A stretch of 35,929 bases of DNA from a bacterium. Lineage in GTDB: Bacteria > Elusimicrobiota > Elusimicrobia > UBA1565 > UBA9628. The position numbers were made by a program, and so were the translations under genes. The DNA lies in assembly GCA_021783355.1 (NCBI GenBank), contig JAJXTZ010000006.1, forward strand, positions 1-35,929, given 5' to 3'. Within the stretch, counting starts at the first letter, position 1, and every line of letters begins with the position of its first letter. The notes beneath the pieces are model-generated. The model had not been told where the DNA came from. It was given only the letters and a program-made list of their open reading frames with translations, and ran no database searches. Shown here in pieces: positions 19,841 to 30,691 of the stretch.

Positions 19841-20965
19841 TCAGGCCGCGTAGAACTCCTCGATCGACGAGATCATGTGCGCGATCTCCTCCTTGGTCAG
19901 GTGCTGGTGGACCGGGAGGGTCATCGTCGCCGCGGCGTCGGCCTCGGCCATCAGGAAGTCGCCCTTCTTGTAGCCGAGCGGGCGGCTGGCCGGCTGGAGG
20001 TGAAGGGGGATCGGATAGTGGACTTTCGCCTCGATGCCGCGTCCCTGCAGGAACTTGAGCAGTTCGTCGCGGCGCTGTGCGTGGAACTGGTAGAGGTGGT
20101 AGACGTGGGTCTCGCGGGGGTCGCGTTTCGGAAGTCTGATCTTCGGGGCGAGCTTGGCCAGCGCGGCGTCCAGCGTCTTGGCGTTGGCGATGCGGATGTC
20201 GGTGATCCAGCGGAAATTCTGGATCTCGCGGAGGCCGACGAGGGCCTGCAGGGAGTCCAGCCGACTGTTGTACGCGTAGAACGCGTACTCGTCGCGGCTG
20301 GACATGCCGTGGTTGCGCAGCAGGCGCAGCTTGTCGCGCATCTCGGCGGAGCTGGTCACGATCACGCCGCCGTCGCCCCAGACGTTGATGTTCTTGAGCG
20401 GGTGGAGGCTGAAGCCGGCCATCAGGCCCCAGGTGCCGCAGTTGCGGCCGTCAAAGGCGGCGCCGATGCCCTGGCAGGAATCCTCGATCACGGGGAGCTT
20501 GTGCTTCGAGGCGATCTCCATGACCCGGGGCATGTCCGGCGGCTGCCCGCCCCAGACGACGGGCATCAGGGCCTTCGTGCGCGGAGTGATTGCGGCCTCC
20601 ATCTTGCCGCAATCGATGACGCCCTTCTCGTCGCAGTCGACGAAGACGATCCGGGCTCCGGCGGTCTCGATGGCGCCGGCCGTCGCGACGAAGGTGTTGG
20701 CCATCGTGATCACCTCGTCGCCGGCGCCGATCCCGAGGGCCTTCAGCGACAGGAACAGCGCGTCGGTCCCTGAGCCGACGCCGACCGCGTACTTGGTCCC
20801 GATCAGGGCCGCGAACTTCTCCTCGAACTCGGTCACCGGCTTGCCGAGAGTGAAATCCCCGGACTGGACCAGCGCCTTGATCTCGGCGAGGACGCCGTCG
20901 ATGTCGGCGAATTGGCGCGGCAAATATGAATAGGGGACTTTAAGGGTCTTCGTCGCTGGGGTCAT
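19841..20965 (-). CDS. DegT/DnrJ/EryC1/StrS-family sugar aminotransferase (second SLHPLK copy)
   Basis: 374 residues. PLP fold with GVGSGTDALFLSLKALG, PVVWGGQPPDMPRVME, Asp162 (VIEDSCQGIGAA) and PLP lysine Lys191 in GFSLHPLKNINVWGDGG. It is the same length and has the same motif style as the gene at 8535-9671, but clearly diverged. GGAG six bases before ATG 20965 is a usable ribosome site. It lies after the nucleotidyltransferase-kinase fusion and before the Gfo/Idh gene. An oxidoreductase plus an aminotransferase of this kind is the usual pair for converting a sugar hydroxyl to an amine (as in 3-amino sugars); that pairing is inference. Confidence 0.85.
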   Translation of the reverse strand: MTPATKTLKVPYSYLPRQFADIDGVLAEIKALVQSGDFTLGKPVTEFEEKFAALIGTKYAVGVGSGTDALFLSLKALGIGAGDEVITMANTFVATAGAIETAGARIVFVDCDEKGVIDCGKMEAAITPRTKALMPVVWGGQPPDMPRVMEIASKHKLPVIEDSCQGIGAAFDGRNCGTWGLMAGFSLHPLKNINVWGDGGVIVTSSAEMRDKLRLLRNHGMSSRDEYAFYAYNSRLDSLQALVGLREIQNFRWITDIRIANAKTLDAALAKLAPKIRLPKRDPRETHVYHLYQFHAQRRDELLKFLQGRGIEAKVHYPIPLHLQPASRPLGYKKGDFLMAEADAAATMTLPVHQHLTKEEIAHMISSIEEFYAA

Positions 20966-20978
20966 GGTGTCTCCGTGC

Positions 20979-22526
20979 CTACTTCAGAAGGGTCTGGATG
21001 AACTTATAGAGGCCGGTCGGGTCTACGGATTCCCGATTGCCGACGATCTCGACGGCCATCGCGCCGACGCAGTTGGCCACCAATCCGAGCAGGTCGGGGG
21101 CGAACCCGAGGTGCGCGCAAGGGCTGGTGACCGCGAACAGCGCGTCGCCCGCTCCGGTGCGGTCGACCACGCGCGTGGCCAGCGCCGGGGTCTCCTCCCA
21201 GCCTGAGTCGGTGAGGATCGCCGAGCCCTTGTGTCCGCGGCTGACCAGGAAGGTCTTGGCGCCCAGGGCCTTGCGCAGGCGCGCGGACTCGGCGTGCAGG
21301 TCGCCGTAGCGGTTGCGGGCCGCGAGCCTCAGCTCCGGCTCGTCGATCGAGACGAAATCGGCGCGGGAGTAGTTCGTCACCGCGTTGAAGCCGTGGTTCG
21401 CGGAGTTCGACTGCGTGTTCAGCGCCAGGAATTTTCGCGAGCGGCTCAGCGTCTGGCGGAGCTTCGGCGTGAGCAGGCCGTGGCCGAAGTCGTTGACCAC
21501 GAGGAAGTCGTTCTTGGCCGCCGCGGACTGCAGCCGCGCGCCGAAGGCCTCCTCGTCGTGCTTCTCGAAGGGGGTGTCGTCGAGATACTGGATCTCGAAC
21601 ATTTTGGTCATGAAGTTCGGCTCGATGAAGCGGCGCTTCCGGACCGTCGGACGGTCGGCCGTGCGCACGGTCTCCATGCGCACGTTGGGCTTCAGCTTGG
21701 AGCGGAGGAACTCGGTCTCCTCGTCGTCGGGCCCCACGGAGGTCAGCAGGGTCACCTCGCGGCAGAAGCCGGCCAGATGGTTGGCGGTGGCGACGGCACC
21801 GCCGGCGAAGCGCTCGCGCGAGGAGTACTTCGTGGCGACGATGGTGTCCTTCGGAGTCTTGCCAAGGGGGATGCAGTAGAAGTATTCGTCGAGGATGGCC
21901 TCTCCGACCACGAGGGCCTTCAGGTCGGAGAGCCCGCGCAGGCGCGCGACGATCTCGTCGCTGGAGTGCTTCTGGCGCATGCGGTGCAGGTACTCCTGCG
22001 TCGCCTCCGGATAGGCGCTGAAGAAGCGGTTGATCAGGAAGCTGGAACTGGAGCGGAAGCCGCCCGTGACCACCAGGCGCCCGCCGACGGAGCGCACGGC
22101 GGCCTCCTCCTCGGAGATCTTCCCGGTCAGGTCCGCGCCGGCGTCGGCGTAATCCGAACCCTTTACGTAGAGATCGGGCTTGAGCAGCTTGATCGTCTCG
22201 ACGGCGGTCGGCCATTCGTTGAGGGCGACGAAGTCGATGAACTGGACCGCGGCGAGCGTCTCCAAGCGCAGCTGTTGGCCGAAGATCGGGCGTCCCGGCC
22301 CCTTGTTGACGAGCTTGTCGGGGGTGATCGTCACGACGAGGAGGTCGGCCATCTCGCGCGCCTCGCGGAAGTGGACCACGTGCCCGGGGTGCATCAGGTC
22401 GAAGACGCCGTGGCACATCGCGACGGTCTTCCCGGACTTGCGGGCCTTGGCCAGGATCGCGGCGAGCTCCTTGAGGCCCTTGATCTTGGGGTTCGCGGCG
22501 GGACGACGGGGCTTGGCGGTTGGCAT
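20979..22526 (-). CDS. Nucleotidyltransferase-PfkB kinase fusion (HldE-like, reversed order)
   Basis: 515 residues. Residues about 20-170 form a RfaE2-type nucleotidyltransferase: HGVFDLMHPGH (39-49) and LKPDLYVKGSDYAD. Residues about 210-515 form a PfkB sugar kinase with FAGGAVATANHLAGF, VVNDFGHG and DRTGAGDALFA, whose Asp is the catalytic base. In HldE of enteric bacteria the kinase comes first and the transferase second; here the order is swapped. The joint reaction would be phosphorylation of a heptose-7-P-like substrate at C1 and nucleotide transfer to it. No GmhA, GmhB or HldD of classical type is recognisable in the window. ATG 22526 is 2 bases after the upstream stop. Confidence 0.8.
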   Translation of the reverse strand: MPTAKPRRPAANPKIKGLKELAAILAKARKSGKTVAMCHGVFDLMHPGHVVHFREAREMADLLVVTITPDKLVNKGPGRPIFGQQLRLETLAAVQFIDFVALNEWPTAVETIKLLKPDLYVKGSDYADAGADLTGKISEEEAAVRSVGGRLVVTGGFRSSSSFLINRFFSAYPEATQEYLHRMRQKHSSDEIVARLRGLSDLKALVVGEAILDEYFYCIPLGKTPKDTIVATKYSSRERFAGGAVATANHLAGFCREVTLLTSVGPDDEETEFLRSKLKPNVRMETVRTADRPTVRKRRFIEPNFMTKMFEIQYLDDTPFEKHDEEAFGARLQSAAAKNDFLVVNDFGHGLLTPKLRQTLSRSRKFLALNTQSNSANHGFNAVTNYSRADFVSIDEPELRLAARNRYGDLHAESARLRKALGAKTFLVSRGHKGSAILTDSGWEETPALATRVVDRTGAGDALFAVTSPCAHLGFAPDLLGLVANCVGAMAVEIVGNRESVDPTGLYKFIQTLLK

Positions 22527-22528
22527 GG

Positions 22529-23539
22529 TCAGCGCTCGGCGGCGGGAGTGAGGTTGTCGAACCAGGCTTTCGTGGCCTGCTCGATGGACTGGGGCGTCCA
22601 GACGGGCGCGGTCTTCCAGTCGTCCAGGCGCTCGAGCATCTGGGCGACGCCGTCCTCCAAGGAGACCTTCGGCTCCCAACCGAGGACGCGGCGGATCTTG
22701 GAGATGTCGGCGAAGGTGCAGTCGGGCTCGCCGGGGCGCTTCGGGATGTGCGTGACCGGTCCGCCCAGCAGTTCGACCAAGAGTTTGACGCTGTAAGTGT
22801 GGCCGGAGCCGACGTTGAAGACTTCGCCGGTGACGCCCGAGTCGGCAGCCTTGACCAGCGCGGCGGCCACGTCCGTCACGAAAGTGAAGTCGCGGGTCTG
22901 CGTGCCGTCGCCGACGACGGTGTAGGGCTTGCCGTGGATCTTCTGCGCCAGGAAGACGCCGAAGACGGCGCCGTAGGTGCCCGAGGTCCGCGCGCGGGGA
23001 CCGTACACGTTGAAGAAGCGGGTTGAGACGACCGGCATGCCGTAAACCTTGCCCCAGTGCAGAACCAGTTCCTCCCCGAGGCGCTTGGTCAGCGCGTAGG
23101 GGTACTGCGGGCGGATCTCGGCCGTCTCCGGGGTCGGGTAAGCGTCGGGGATGCCGTAGCAGGAGGAGGAGGCGGCGTAGACGAAGCGCTTGACCTTCGC
23201 GGCGCGCGCGGCTTCCAGGACCGATTCGGTGCCGACGACGTTGGATCGGAAATAGTCGGTGGGACGCTCGATGGAAGGGACGATGTCGGCGAGCGCGGCC
23301 AGGTGGAACACCCGTTCGGCCCCGGCGAAATGCGGGGCGATCGCGGCATGGTCGGCGACGTCGGCCCAGACGACGCTGAGTGCCGGATTCGACGCGAGGT
23401 GCGACAGGTTCTGGGGGCGGCCCACGGAACCGTTGTCGATCGCGGTGACCAGCCAGCCATCGGCGAGGAGCCTCTCGACCAGATGGCTGCCGATGAAGCC
23501 CGCGCCTCCGGTGACGATCGCGCGGCGTCCGCCGCTCAT
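22529..23539 (-). CDS. NAD-dependent nucleotide-sugar epimerase (extended SDR)
   Basis: 336 residues. Cofactor loop IVTGGAGFIGSHLVERLL near the N-terminus, AASSSCYGIPDAYPTPE with the catalytic Ser, Tyr-x3-Lys in PYALTKRLGEE, FFNVYGPRARTSG and GDGTQTRDFTFVTDVA. This is the UDP-glucose/GlcNAc 4-epimerase-like branch. The Asp-Glu pair of 4,6-dehydratases is absent after the catalytic Ser, so I do not call it LegB. It overlaps the preceding epimerase by ATGA and is 2 bases from the kinase fusion. Product unknown; it may supply a galacto- or heptose-configured nucleotide sugar. Confidence 0.8.
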   Translation of the reverse strand: MSGGRRAIVTGGAGFIGSHLVERLLADGWLVTAIDNGSVGRPQNLSHLASNPALSVVWADVADHAAIAPHFAGAERVFHLAALADIVPSIERPTDYFRSNVVGTESVLEAARAAKVKRFVYAASSSCYGIPDAYPTPETAEIRPQYPYALTKRLGEELVLHWGKVYGMPVVSTRFFNVYGPRARTSGTYGAVFGVFLAQKIHGKPYTVVGDGTQTRDFTFVTDVAAALVKAADSGVTGEVFNVGSGHTYSVKLLVELLGGPVTHIPKRPGEPDCTFADISKIRRVLGWEPKVSLEDGVAQMLERLDDWKTAPVWTPQSIEQATKAWFDNLTPAAER

Positions 23540-24540
23540 GCGGCGGGCGCGGCGGGAGACGCCTTCATCGTCTTGACGTTGAAGTAGCGGGGGTCTTCCA
23601 GGCTGTTCGGGAGCTTGCCGGCTTTGAAGGCGCGGCAGAGGTCGCGGATCGCGTCCTCGACGGTATGCTTCGGCTGGAAGCCGATGTCGCGGGCGATCTT
23701 GTCGGAGCCGACGTGGTAGGAGCGCAGGTCGTCCGTCGGGCTGGTGACGATCTCGATCGGGGCCTTCTCCGGGAACTCCTCCTCGACGACGGCCTTGACC
23801 ATCTTCGCCAGGTCGGCGACGGTGTGGTTCTGGTAGCCCGCGTTCCAGATCTTTCCGTCGATCTTCTCGGCCGGGAGGGACAAGAGCTCGACGTAAAGGT
23901 CGGAGATGTCGTCGATGTGGATGTTCGGGCGCTTCTGGGACCCGCCGAAGACGGTGATCCGGCGCTTGTTCACCGCGAGGTTCGTCAGGATGTTGACCGC
24001 CAGGTCCAGGCGCGTCCGCGGAGAGTAACCGCAGACGGTGGCGGGGCGGATGACGACGGCGGTGAACCCGGGCGTCTTGAGACGCGCGAGGACCTCCTCG
24101 CACATGGCCTTGAACTTGCTGTAGTCGGTCAAGGGCTTAAGAGGGTGCGTCTCGTCCACGTTAGGCGACTCGCTGACGCCGTAAACGGAGCTCGACGAGG
24201 CGTAGATGAAGCGCTTCACGCCGGCGGCCTGAGAGGCTCTGACCATCGGCTCGAACGCGTCGAAGTTGATCGACTTGCCGAGCGCCGGATCCAGCTCGAA
24301 GCTGGGATCGTTGGAGATGCAGGCCAGGTGGATCACCGCCTCGCAGCCGGCCACCGCTTTCTTGTAGGCGGCAATGTCCCGCAGGTCCGCCGTGACGACG
24401 GTCAGGCGCGGATGGGGGGTGAGGCCCTGGTCGCCGTAGTACATGATGTCGTAGGCGACGACCTTGTGACCGGCCGCAATCAGCTTGGGGACGAGGGCGC
24501 AACCGACATAGCCGGCGGCGCCGGTGACGAGGACTTTCAT
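23536..24540 (-). CDS. NAD-dependent epimerase/dehydratase, first gene of the operon
   Basis: 334 residues. MKVLVTGAAGYVGCALVPKL carries the NAD-binding GxxGxxG, then IHLACISNDPSFELDP, YASSSSVYGVSESPNVDE with Ser/Thr catalytic side, YSKFKAMCEEVL for the Tyr-x3-Lys pair and RPATVCGYSPRTRLDLAVN. An extended SDR of the WcaG group common in surface-sugar loci. It starts at ATG 24540, 34 bases after a predicted transcription start. A longer form from 24582 would run into the promoter. A SASVD-like acidic residue after the Ser is not clear, so epimerase, reductase and dehydratase all remain possible. Confidence 0.8.
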   Translation of the reverse strand: MKVLVTGAAGYVGCALVPKLIAAGHKVVAYDIMYYGDQGLTPHPRLTVVTADLRDIAAYKKAVAGCEAVIHLACISNDPSFELDPALGKSINFDAFEPMVRASQAAGVKRFIYASSSSVYGVSESPNVDETHPLKPLTDYSKFKAMCEEVLARLKTPGFTAVVIRPATVCGYSPRTRLDLAVNILTNLAVNKRRITVFGGSQKRPNIHIDDISDLYVELLSLPAEKIDGKIWNAGYQNHTVADLAKMVKAVVEEEFPEKAPIEIVTSPTDDLRSYHVGSDKIARDIGFQPKHTVEDAIRDLCRAFKAGKLPNSLEDPRYFNVKTMKASPAAPAA

Positions 24541-24580
24541 GGTAATGGGGTTCCTGGGCGGGATATCCGCTTGCAGAGGC

Positions 24581-24610
24581 ATTTTATTGATTCCAGGCCC
24601 CATCCGTCAA
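24581..24610 (-). promoter_or_regulatory. Sigma-70-type promoter of the 16019-24540 glycan operon
   Basis: The minus strand has TTGACG (24610-24605), an 18-base spacer and TAAAAT (24586-24581). The predicted start near 24574 leaves a leader of about 34 bases, with AGGA 11-14 bases before ATG 24540. This is the only promoter in the window for which I see a good -35 box and a normal leader. Confidence 0.55.
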
Positions 24611-24662: not shown

Positions 24663-25865
24663 ATGGAGGCCTACGATTTCCTGGTGATCGGCGGCGGCGT
24701 GGTGGGGCTGTCGATCGCGCGCGAGCTCAAGGCGCGCGTCCCGGGGGCCTCGGTCGCGGTGCTGGACAAGGAGGACGGTCCGGCGCGGCACGCCAGCGGG
24801 CGCAACAGCGGGGTCCTGCACGCCGGCTTCTACTACTCCGCCGACACCCTCAAGGCGCGCTTCACGCGCGCGGGCAACCGGGCCTGGACCGAGTACTGCC
24901 GGCAGCGCCGACTGCCGCTGAGGGCCTGCGGGAAGCTGGTGGTCGCGACGCGCGAGGAGGAGCTGCCGGTCCTCGACGAGCTGCTGCGCCGGGGGCGCGC
25001 CAACGGGGTGCCCGTCGAGGCGGTGGACGAGAAGGCCGCGCGCGAGATCGAGCCGCGCGCGCGCACGCTCGGCCGCGCGCTGTGGTCGCCGAGCACGGCG
25101 ACGGTGGACCCGGGGGCTTGCGTGGCCGCGCTGGCCGAGGACGCGCGGCGCGAGGGCGTCGTCCTGCACTGGGGCCGCGCCTACGCGGGGAGAGCGGGAC
25201 GGCGCGTGCGCACCGCGAAGGGCGACCTGGAGGCGGGCTTCGTCGTCAACGCGGCGGGGCTGCAGGCCGACCGCGTGGCGCGGGACTTCGGCTTTTCGCG
25301 GCGCTACCGCGTCCTCCCGTTCAAGGGGCTCTACCTTTACTCGGACGAGCCGGCCGGGGCCCTGCGCGTGCACCTGTACCCGGTGCCCGACATCCGCAAC
25401 CCGTTCCTGGGGGTGCATTTCACGGTGACCGTGGACGGCCGCGCGAAGATCGGGCCGACGGCGATCCCGGCGCTGTGGCGGGAGAACTACGGGGGGCTGT
25501 CGGGCTTCTCGGCCCGGGAGCTCCTGGAGATCGCCTGGCGTCAGGCGGGGCTCCTCGCGTCTGCGGGGTTCGACTTCCGGCGGCTGGCCGTCGAGGAGAT
25601 CCGCAAGAACTCGCGGGGCGTGATGGTCGGTCTGGCCGCGCGGCTGGCGGACGGGGTGCGCCGGGAGGATTATCGCCGCTGGGGTCGGCCCGGCATCCGC
25701 GCGCAGCTGATGGACGTCGAGAACCGCACGCTCGTGATGGACTTCGTGCTGGAAGGCGACGGGAGATCGCTGCACGTCCTCAACGCGGTCTCGCCGGGCT
25801 TCACCTGCGCGATGCCCTTCGCGGCGCACGTCGTCCAGCGCGCGCTGGCCTCGGCCGGGCGCTGA
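24663..25865 (+). CDS. lhgO: L-2-hydroxyglutarate oxidase-like FAD enzyme (LhgO)
   Basis: 400 residues, DAO superfamily. FAD-binding FLVIGGGVVGLSIAREL at the N-terminus, SGRNSGVLHAGFYY (45-58), GKLVVATREEELPVLDEL, VNAAGLQADRVARDFG, and the C-terminal VSPGFTCAMPFAAHVV. These match LhgO/YgaF, which oxidises L-2-hydroxyglutarate to 2-oxoglutarate and passes electrons to the membrane quinone pool. Start at ATG 24663, 6 bases after a -10 element. It is a single gene, divergent from the glycan operon and convergent with the cytidylyltransferase gene, 7 bases between stops. Nothing links it to the glycan pathway. Confidence 0.85.
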   Translation: MEAYDFLVIGGGVVGLSIARELKARVPGASVAVLDKEDGPARHASGRNSGVLHAGFYYSADTLKARFTRAGNRAWTEYCRQRRLPLRACGKLVVATREEELPVLDELLRRGRANGVPVEAVDEKAAREIEPRARTLGRALWSPSTATVDPGACVAALAEDARREGVVLHWGRAYAGRAGRRVRTAKGDLEAGFVVNAAGLQADRVARDFGFSRRYRVLPFKGLYLYSDEPAGALRVHLYPVPDIRNPFLGVHFTVTVDGRAKIGPTAIPALWRENYGGLSGFSARELLEIAWRQAGLLASAGFDFRRLAVEEIRKNSRGVMVGLAARLADGVRREDYRRWGRPGIRAQLMDVENRTLVMDFVLEGDGRSLHVLNAVSPGFTCAMPFAAHVVQRALASAGR

Positions 25866-28158: not shown

Positions 28159-28914
28159 CTATTTTACCAAATCGGCGCCCGTCGCCGGGGCGAGGAACAG
28201 CAGGAACTCGACGTTCCCCTTGGGGCCCCGCGCAGGGGACTCGATCAGGCCGCGCTCGGCCAGGCCCAGGCCGGCGGCGGCGGCGCGCACCTTGTCCACG
28301 GCCTGCCGGCGCACGGCGGGGTCGCGCGCCACGCCCTTGGGGGCCAGCTTGGGGCCGACCTCGAACTGGGGCTTGACCAGGACGACGAGCTCCGCCGGCG
28401 GGGCCAGGCACGGGACGACGAACGGCAGCACCTGCGCGGCCGAGATGAACGACACGTCCATGACGGCCAGCGTCGGGCGCGGGTCGAACCATGCGGGCTT
28501 CAAGAACCGCGCGTGGGTGTTCTCGCGGCTGACGACGCGCGGGTCGGCCTTCAGGCGGGAGTCGAGCTGGGCGGTGCCCACGTCCACGGCGTACACCCTG
28601 GCGGCTCCGCCTTGGAGGAGGCAGTCGGTGAAGCCGCCGGTGGAGGCGCCGACGTCCAGGCAGACGCGCCCCTCCACGGGCACGGAGAACGCGTCCAGCG
28701 CGGCCTTCAGCTTCAGCCCGCCGCGCGACACGAACGGGCAGGGGTCGGACTTGAGCGCGAGTTCGGCCTCGGCGGGGACGGAGTCGCCCGCCTTGCGCGC
28801 CGGGACGCCGTCCACCAGGACCAGGCCGGCCATCACGGCGGCCGCGGCCTTGGAGCGCGTCTCGAAGAGGCCGCGTTCGACGAGCAGGAGGTCCAGCCGG
28901 GCGCGTTTGGCCAT
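28159..28914 (-). CDS. tlyA: TlyA rRNA (cytidine-2'-O)-methyltransferase
   Basis: 251 residues. N-terminal S4 RNA-binding domain (RLDLLLVERGLFETRSKA, near 4-21), then FVSRGGLKLKAALDAF and an FtsJ-like methyltransferase: CLDVGASTGGFTDCLLQGGA for SAM, VMDVSFIS and LVKPQFEVG with the catalytic-type lysine. TlyA methylates ribose 2'-OH groups in 16S and 23S rRNA; some relatives are haemolysin-like by name only. GAGGA five bases upstream of ATG 28914 is a good ribosome site, one of the few in this window. Its last codons and stop form the promoter of the response-regulator gene. Confidence 0.9.
   Translation of the reverse strand: MAKRARLDLLLVERGLFETRSKAAAAVMAGLVLVDGVPARKAGDSVPAEAELALKSDPCPFVSRGGLKLKAALDAFSVPVEGRVCLDVGASTGGFTDCLLQGGAARVYAVDVGTAQLDSRLKADPRVVSRENTHARFLKPAWFDPRPTLAVMDVSFISAAQVLPFVVPCLAPPAELVVLVKPQFEVGPKLAPKGVARDPAVRRQAVDKVRAAAAGLGLAERGLIESPARGPKGNVEFLLFLAPATGADLVK
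28161..28169 (-). promoter_or_regulatory. Extended -10 promoter of the receiver gene, inside the tlyA 3' end
   Basis: The minus strand reads TGGTAAAAT, ending 7 bases before ATG 28153. Its last bases are part of the AAA-TAG end of tlyA, whose stop is at 28161-28159. The predicted start falls at the ATG, giving a leaderless message. Confidence 0.55.
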
Positions 28915-28947: not shown

Positions 28948-29829
28948 ATGGCCCGCCTCCTCGACTGCCGCGCCGTCGCCGCCCGCTATTTCGACTGGGC
29001 CGCGCGCGAGATCGCCGGGATGCGCCGCAAGCCGCGCCTGGCCACGGTGCTCTTCCGTCCGGAGAAGAACCCCGCCTCGCTCCAGTACCGCGACCTGATC
29101 GTGCGCGACGCGGCGCGCGTGGGCGCGACGGTGGACGCGCACGAGGCGGGCGACGAGGAGTCCCTGCTGGCGCTGGTGCGGCGCCTCAACGCCGACCGCG
29201 GCACGACGGGACTGATGCTCTTCTACCCGCTGCAGTGCGCGCTCAAGGACGAGGACGTGATGGACCTGGTCTCACCGCTGAAGGACGTCGAGGGTCTGCA
29301 CTCCACGAACCTGGGCTATCTGCTCAAGTACAAGCGCTTCCTCGACGAGGCGCGCGGCATCAAGTGCGTGGTCCCGGCCACCGCGAAGGCCGTGGTCAAG
29401 ACCCTGCAGGCCTACCCGGACCTCCGGATCGACGGGGCGTTCGCCGTGATCGTCAACAACTCGATGCGCGTGGGCAAGCCCCTGGGCCTGATGCTCGAGA
29501 ACCTGGGCGCCACGGTGGTCAAGGGCTACGACAAGACCGACCGCGCGACGCTCGAGGCCTGCGTGCGCCGCGCCGACCTGGTGGTCACCGCGGTCCCCGA
29601 CCCGGCCTTCCGGCTGGACCCGTCGTGGATCAAGCCCGGCGCGGCGGTGGTGGACGTCTCGTTCCAGGGCAACGCGGACCCGGAGGCGCTCAAGGAGCGC
29701 GCCGCGTTCATGACCGAGCCCGGCAACCGCGTCGGCGTCATGACGCGCGCGATGACCTTCGTGAACCTCGTCTACTGCGCCAAGAACGCGCCGCTGCGGC
29801 GCGCGTCCCGTGTCCCCGTCCTGGGCTGA
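28948..29829 (+). CDS. folD: FolD-family methylene-tetrahydrofolate dehydrogenase, Mtd1-like active site
   Basis: 293 residues, the FolD length and fold: PASLQYRDLI (42-51), a folate region KDVEGLHSTNLG (112-123), NAD(P)-binding NSMRVGKPLGLMLENLG and a C-terminal MTRAMTFVNLVY. But the residues needed for cyclohydrolase activity in bifunctional FolD differ. The catalytic-Lys position (Lys56 in E. coli, four after the conserved Tyr) is Ile51. The VQLPLP segment reads LFYPLQ (Gln98 becomes Phe92). The KDVDG Asp is Glu115, and PCTP is PATA. Yeast Mtd1, a monofunctional NAD-dependent dehydrogenase, has similar replacements (Thr57, Tyr98, KDVEG). I infer a dehydrogenase without cyclohydrolase. Followed by the EamA gene with 20 bases overlap. 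Confidence 0.85.
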   Translation: MARLLDCRAVAARYFDWAAREIAGMRRKPRLATVLFRPEKNPASLQYRDLIVRDAARVGATVDAHEAGDEESLLALVRRLNADRGTTGLMLFYPLQCALKDEDVMDLVSPLKDVEGLHSTNLGYLLKYKRFLDEARGIKCVVPATAKAVVKTLQAYPDLRIDGAFAVIVNNSMRVGKPLGLMLENLGATVVKGYDKTDRATLEACVRRADLVVTAVPDPAFRLDPSWIKPGAAVVDVSFQGNADPEALKERAAFMTEPGNRVGVMTRAMTFVNLVYCAKNAPLRRASRVPVLG

Positions 29830-30691
29830 CCTCGGGCTCGTCTACTGCGCCGTCGTCTGGGGCGCGACCTTCTTCCTGGTCAAGGACGCGCTGGCCGGCG
29901 TGGACCCGGTCGCGATGGTCGCCCTCCGCTTCCTGCTGTCGGCCGTCATGCTCGCGCCGTGGGCGCTGTCGCGCCCGTCGCGCGCGCGGCATCTGAAGGA
30001 GAGCGCGCTGCTCTCGGTCCTGCTCCTCCTCCTGTACGCGTCGCAGACCGCGGGCCTGGCCTACACCAGCGCGGCGAACTCCGGCTTCATCACGGGCCTG
30101 TTCGTGATCTTCGTGCCGCTGTTCCTGCTGCTCTTCTTCGGACGGAGGCCGACGCGCGTGCAGTGGGGCGCGTCGCTCTTGGCGCTGAGCGGGCTGTGGA
30201 TGCTGACGGGGGGCGTGCGCGCGGCGAACTTCGGCGACGCGATCACGCTGATCGCCGCCGCGACCTACGCCGGGCATCTCCTCGCCACCGACCGGATCGT
30301 CAAGGCCGAAGCGGACCTGGTGGTCCTGGCATTCCACCAGTTCTGGATGACGGGACTGATGGCCGCGGCGTGGGTCCTGGCCTCGGGACGCTCGTTCGCG
30401 GTGACCTCGACGGCATCGCTCGAGATCATCGTCTTCCTGGCCGCGGTGCCCACGCTGTCGGGCTTCTTCGTGCAGATGTGGGCGCAGAAGACCGAGCCGC
30501 CGGTGAAGGTGAGCCTCTTCTTCACGCTGGAGCCTGTCTTCGCCGCCGTCTTCGCCTGGACGGTCGGCGGCGAGGCCTTCTCCGCCAAGCGCGCGGCCGG
30601 CGGGGCGCTGATCGTGGCGGCGATGATGGCGGGCGAGGTGTCCAAGCTGGACCTGCGTCGCGGGCGGCGCAAGGAGGTCCTGCCGAGCTGA
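29810..30691 (+). CDS. EamA-family (DMT superfamily) permease
   Basis: 293 residues with about ten hydrophobic helices in two EamA repeats (ADLGLVYCAVVWGATFFLVK at the N-terminus, then GDAITLIAAATYAGHLLATD from the second half). The pattern GATFFLVKDAL and PLFLLLFFGRRP is typical of drug/metabolite exporters of amino acids, sugars or metabolites. It starts at GTG 29810, inside the end of the folD-like gene in another frame, an overlap of 20 bases that suggests co-transcription. The C-terminal tail is basic (RRGRRKEV). The substrate cannot be inferred. Followed by a 134-base GC-rich stretch with a hairpin, then a convergent gene. Confidence 0.85.
   Translation: MSPSWADLGLVYCAVVWGATFFLVKDALAGVDPVAMVALRFLLSAVMLAPWALSRPSRARHLKESALLSVLLLLLYASQTAGLAYTSAANSGFITGLFVIFVPLFLLLFFGRRPTRVQWGASLLALSGLWMLTGGVRAANFGDAITLIAAATYAGHLLATDRIVKAEADLVVLAFHQFWMTGLMAAAWVLASGRSFAVTSTASLEIIVFLAAVPTLSGFFVQMWAQKTEPPVKVSLFFTLEPVFAAVFAWTVGGEAFSAKRAAGGALIVAAMMAGEVSKLDLRRGRRKEVLPS

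Follow-up and report, generated by a model that had tools for sequence, protein, structure and literature searches.

Yeast MTD1 is a monofunctional NAD-dependent methylene-THF dehydrogenase. NAD-dependent monofunctional methylene-THF dehydrogenases are also reported from acetogens, e.g. Acetobacterium woodii, where they are paired with a separate cyclohydrolase, FchA, and operate in the Wood-Ljungdahl pathway alongside formate-THF ligase. With yeast MTD1 and the acetogen enzymes, the monofunctional NAD-linked methylene-THF dehydrogenase is an already known kind of enzyme.

In the related dehydrogenase/cyclohydrolases, a Lys acts as general acid/base in hydrolysis, a Gln positions this Lys and an Asp holds the pterin (PMC3338484); in the human DHCH, the Lys/Gln pair is said to aid hydride transfer as well (PMC3368264). 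The E. coli FolD variant K54N has ~19% of its dehydrogenase activity left and undetectable cyclohydrolase, while Q98H shows 8% dehydrogenase and about 1% cyclohydrolase; the mutants are viable, which the authors credit to spontaneous methenyl-THF hydrolysis (PMC5688156). The NADP 2'-phosphate is bound by an Arg, a His and a Ser in bifunctional enzymes, and Gly273 and Gly276 of the PGGVGP loop are named as key substrate-site residues of the human enzyme (PMC3368264).

The locus and its protein

The window analysed here is a stretch of 35,929 nucleotides (contig JAJXTZ010000006.1, positions 1 to 35,929) from an Elusimicrobiota MAG of 2.7 Mb in 260 contigs, 91% complete, referred to below as G000. 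It contains an ORF with an ATG at 28948 that is open through to a stop ending at 29829 and encodes 293 aa. This gene and its neighbours are described as follows:

28159..28914, minus strand: TlyA-like S4 plus FtsJ rRNA methyltransferase, divergent neighbour, 33 bp off; conserved neighbour in the family
28948..29829, plus strand: Mtd1-like FolD paralogue, 293 aa plus stop (ORF translation, Pfam, NCBIfam, AlphaFold model)
29810..30691, plus strand: EamA-type transporter, start overlapping the 3' end of the Mtd1-like gene; neighbour in most of the genus

Both Pfam domains and the fold place the protein in the FolD family (THF dehydrogenase/cyclohydrolase superfamily). PF00763 (THF_DHG_CYH, 56.8 bits) and PF02882 (THF_DHG_CYH_C, 85.6 bits) pass the Pfam cut-off, and the AlphaFold model, built with the clade alignment as input (mean pLDDT 88.9, pTM 0.88), shows the FolD/MTHFD fold, with TM 0.76-0.86 to solved structures among the best 50 PDB chains listed, yeast MTD1 (1EDZ) included. 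The bifunctional FolD models of NCBIfam are the best matches, yet all those listed fall far under the cut-off (top 123 bits vs 401). The window protein shares its two domains and fold with the bifunctional FolD enzymes of E. coli and Pseudomonas and with human MTHFD1 at an identity of about 26-31%, but has other residues at Lys54, at Gln98, at the site for the NADP 2'-phosphate and in the PGGVGP loop.

Catalytic and cofactor-site residues

To compare residues, the protein was aligned with yeast MTD1 (PDB 1EDZ, 100% identical to the MTD1 sequence), FolD of E. coli K-12 (locus L057) and homologues from Elusimicrobiota. The replaced positions correspond to the following codons:

29098..29100, plus strand: Ile51, replacing the catalytic Lys of YxxxK (E. 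coli Lys54); alignment
29221..29226, plus strand: Phe92-Tyr93, replacing Gln98-Leu99; alignment
29290..29292, plus strand: Glu115 (KDVEG), replacing Asp121, with Glu likewise in yeast MTD1; alignment
29455..29463, plus strand: Asn170-Asn171-Ser172, replacing G-R-S, whose Arg binds the NADP 2'-phosphate in bifunctional enzymes; alignment and PMC3368264
29527..29532, plus strand: Tyr194-Asp195, replacing His-Ser of the NADP 2'-phosphate site; alignment and PMC3368264
29719..29736, plus strand: PGNRVG (258-263), replacing the PGGVGP folate-site loop; alignment and PMC3368264

The initial annotation had placed Ile51, Phe92 and Glu115 at the Lys, Gln and Asp sites, and the alignment with E. coli FolD bears out these positions exactly: Tyr47 falls on Tyr50, Ile51 on Lys54, Phe92 on Gln98 and Glu115 on Asp121. 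Its statement that the same three sites are changed in yeast Mtd1 agrees with the alignment as well, in which MTD1 carries Tyr, Thr57, Tyr98 and Glu121 at the four columns. A shifted catalytic Lys is absent: the region aligns without gaps (YRDLIVRDA vs YVASKRKAC), and no Lys or Arg stands in register at the Lys54 site. The window protein lacks the catalytic Lys of YxxxK, Gln98 and Asp121 of a bifunctional FolD and has the Mtd1-type combination, with Lys and Gln gone and Glu for Asp. Seven residues are listed as key to substrate binding or catalysis in the human enzyme; of these, the window protein retains just the Tyr and a single loop Gly. The homologues grouping with the window protein, here called the Mtd1-like clade, have I, M or V at the Lys site, F, L or M at the Gln site and Glu at the Asp site in 32/32 members (30/30 in the order, plus 2 from another family). 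Because they are conserved in all 32, these replacements are not due to chance.

At the NADP 2'-phosphate site, the Arg, His and Ser columns are occupied by Asn171, Tyr194 and Asp195. Every aligned clade member has Asn at the Arg column, and most have Tyr-Asp at the His-Ser columns, unlike the paralogous second FolD of the order (FolD2) and the class outgroups, which keep Arg/His/Ser. From these replaced residues, we infer a preference for NAD over NADP. The folate loop reads PGNRVG in the window protein and is PDNRIG-like across the clade, vs PGGVGP; the altered folate-site residues include Tyr for Leu99 and Asn for the first loop Gly. The cofactor-site and loop changes fit an NAD-linked, dehydrogenase-only enzyme.

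Comparison with yeast MTD1 and the acetogen enzymes

Yeast MTD1 resembles the window protein in its FolD fold, in the replacement of Lys, Gln and Asp at the same columns (T57, Y98, E121) and in the loss of the PGGVGP loop, at 23% identity over the structural alignment. It differs in keeping the GRS Arg and in a long insertion in the second domain. The acetogen enzymes, likened here by description, differ in having formate-THF ligase as a partner, of which none was found above the cut-off among the 58 genomes of the class searched; G000, too, is without one.

In the tree, MTD1 has a very long branch and joins the Mtd1-like clade (98/97), but placing it among canonical FolDs or beside FolD2 is not rejected by AU tests (p 0.377, 0.367, 0.228). 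The clade may be bacterial kin of fungal MTD1 or may have converged on it.

Distribution, selection and gene neighbourhood

The Mtd1-like clade is present in 35 of the 56 genomes of one Elusimicrobiota order, distributed over three families. Elsewhere in the phylum, in an even sample of 295 genomes, just one further family of the class has it, in two of its genera. Two copies probably from the other family, L089 (5995-6831) and L090 (5020-5856), nest within the clade of the order (98/88 with L027), which suggests horizontal transfer of the Mtd1-like copy.

The Mtd1-like gene is under purifying selection and is not a sporadic mutant: the JC-corrected dN/dS of the window gene against five congeners is about 0.2-0.35, and that of L003 against L004 is 0.10. 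The reading frame is intact in all full-length clade members, many columns are invariant, and in most of the family tlyA stands immediately upstream in divergent orientation. From this conservation, the dN/dS values and the synteny, it follows that the gene is old, maintained and largely vertical in the window's family. An operon with C1 genes was looked for around it, and no recognised C1 gene adjoins. A plasmid search for close homologues returned ordinary FolDs alone, at ~32% identity.

The second FolD of the order

Most relatives carry FolD2, which is 28-36% identical to P0001; in the genus of the window, as in several others, its gene comes immediately after one of PanE/ApbA type. The loci examined were L032-L049, L102-L104, L130-L145 and L152-L163. 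In the tree, FolD2 forms its own clade, together with and nested among the class FolDs (99/97). At the Lys site, 39 of the 49 copies have Lys, five have Arg and five have I, A or Q; Gln98 is replaced in 49/49 (by E, D, V, H, I or L), and Glu stands at the Asp121 site in 48/49. The Asp-to-Glu change, which the initial annotation had counted among the Mtd1-type markers, is for this reason not diagnostic in this order. FolD2 and the Mtd1-like clade are both of the FolD family and both mostly have Glu for Asp121, but FolD2 mostly keeps the Lys and retains the GRS and HS[RK]T NADP motifs and PGGVGP. Class outgroups show the canonical Y-K-Q-L-P-D-G set in 8/9, and the full Lys-Gln-Asp set is absent from every FolD examined in the order.

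FolD2 without the Lys occurs in five genomes that have the Mtd1-like copy; the association between Lys loss and presence of this copy is not significant (5/30 vs 0/19, Fisher p 0.14). Some genera of the order have FolD2 without an Mtd1-like copy, and because such genera exist, FolD2 is presumably enough for growth there. For the same reason, a strict split with the Mtd1-like enzyme as dehydrogenase and FolD2 as cyclohydrolase is unsupported. What the Mtd1-like copy contributes is not obvious, as the genera without it manage on FolD2 alone.

A second folD was also sought in the genome of the window. Neither FolD2 nor the panE-like gene was found in the contigs of G000, an uninformative result, as the relevant contig ends short of the place. 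In relatives, both genes lie near a P5C-dehydrogenase-type gene, and the G000 contig with this gene (C77) stops after a hemolysin-III gene. In G012, FolD2, itself cut by the contig end, is located ~3 kb past the hemolysin-III gene; the syntenic contig of G017 also runs out, 1.7 kb beyond an aldehyde dehydrogenase gene. The absence of FolD2 from G000 is probably an assembly gap, and G000 was dropped as a case of a lone Mtd1-like enzyme since its syntenic contig ends before the FolD2 place. G002, 100% complete by estimate, is without FolD2, and its Mtd1-like copy is the sole FolD homologue found. On its contig C222 (L115, 5451-7366), the FolD2 place is taken by a kinase-like gene, 3 bp after the panE-like gene, and a response regulator.

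One-carbon gene context

G000 carries Formyl_trans_N, a domain of enzymes using 10-formyl-THF, in two genes and, because of these, presumably needs 10-formyl-THF. It also has one full-length FtcD (FTCD_N, FTCD, FTCD_C). The ftcD gene (L106 10110-11597, contig C187) has no recognised histidine-degradation genes adjoining; its product might serve in histidine breakdown or in a cyclohydrolase-like step. Of 58 relatives, 49 have the FtcD domain PF04961, whether or not they carry the Mtd1-like gene; a specific link between the two was dropped for this reason. The earlier claim that a cell with this enzyme then needs another route from methenyl-THF to formyl-THF proved too strong: spontaneous methenyl-THF hydrolysis lets the E. 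coli mutants live (PMC5688156), most relatives have FolD2, and an FtcD with PF04961 is present.

Proposed function and alternatives

We propose, with a probability of roughly two in three, that the FolD paralogue encoded by the window gene has specialised in the NAD-linked oxidation of 5,10-methylene-THF and hydrolyses methenyl-THF little or not at all. Judged from its residues, the protein probably works like Mtd1. The predicted loss of cyclohydrolase is well founded by analogy with the E. coli variants K54N and Q98H, in which this activity is undetectable and about 1%, respectively. The initial assessment (Mtd1-like, probably no cyclohydrolase) stands to this extent, with the three sites, the cofactor site, the C-terminal loop and the E. 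coli mutant analogy on its side; the Asp-to-Glu change does not serve as a marker here, and the need for another route was overstated.

In the proposed mechanism, methylene-THF would bind in the usual cleft, where the motif Tyr is kept and Glu115 takes the place of the pterin-holding Asp, and the hydride would be passed to NAD+. With aliphatic and aromatic residues in place of the Lys/Gln pair for hydrolysis, methenyl-THF would be released. It could then hydrolyse spontaneously or be processed by FolD2 (where the Lys is kept), with the cyclodeaminase-type domain of FtcD as a further, less certain candidate; alternatively, it might be reduced back. Both the direction of flux and the partner enzyme are what we infer here.

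A changed substrate is possible in view of the altered substrate-site residues. The enzyme could be FolD-derived but catalyse a different reaction or act on a different substrate (some other folate or pterin, or a compound that is not a folate), leaving ordinary methylene-THF oxidation and methenyl-THF hydrolysis to FolD2. The Tyr for Leu99, the Asn for the first loop Gly and the rebuilt C-terminal loop would be in line with this, as would the long branch of the clade (1.25 changes per column in the tree) and the retention of FolD2 in most genomes. We nevertheless consider it unlikely, as yeast MTD1, a known methylene-THF dehydrogenase, has the same kinds of change, G002 has the Mtd1-like copy as its only FolD homologue found, and FolD2 is without the Lys in the five genomes mentioned above. 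It is more improbable still that the enzyme has stayed a bifunctional dehydrogenase/cyclohydrolase and hydrolyses methenyl-THF via other residues or water: the FolD-type fold and domains and the NCBIfam matches, though far below cut-off, speak for it, but nothing basic occupies the Lys54 register, and E. coli FolD shows no detectable cyclohydrolase once this Lys is mutated (PMC5688156). A decaying, non-functional folD copy, to which the replaced active-site residues might point, can practically be dismissed given the intact frames, dN/dS well below 1, many invariant columns and conserved synteny.

Significance

Annotation of FolD as bifunctional usually goes by the domains alone, and a whole bacterial clade is likely mis-annotated in this way. 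The preferred reading, an NAD-linked dehydrogenase-only enzyme, would mean that the Mtd1-like copy probably yields only NADH and methenyl-THF, while the other FolD copy has an atypical active site. The order would offer a natural test of how necessary a cyclohydrolase is, given the self-hydrolysis of methenyl-THF, and a bacterial counterpart for studying the origin of fungal MTD1, or convergence on it. In pathway reconstructions from Elusimicrobiota MAGs, the cofactor balance would shift (NADH instead of NADPH).

A wider and rather doubtful proposal is that the order gave up the canonical Lys-Gln-Asp FolD altogether. The conversion of methylene-THF to formyl-THF would then be divided among a paralogue acting purely as an NAD-linked dehydrogenase, an atypical FolD2 (lacking the Lys in at least five of the genomes that have the Mtd1-like copy), FtcD and uncatalysed hydrolysis, with the dehydrogenase clade perhaps kin to fungal MTD1. 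In the literature searched, we found nothing on a conserved bacterial FolD paralogue with the full set of changes beside an atypical FolD2 order-wide.

Other genes in the window

Two further genes of the window were judged by eye. The one at 20979-22679 (minus strand) reads as a fusion in which a cytidylyltransferase half precedes a PfkB-type sugar kinase, opposite to the order in E. coli HldE. The one at 24663-25865 (plus strand) reads as an FAD-dependent L-2-hydroxyglutarate oxidase-like protein, whose gene adjoins a cluster of sugar-nucleotide and aminotransferase genes on the other strand (19841-24603).
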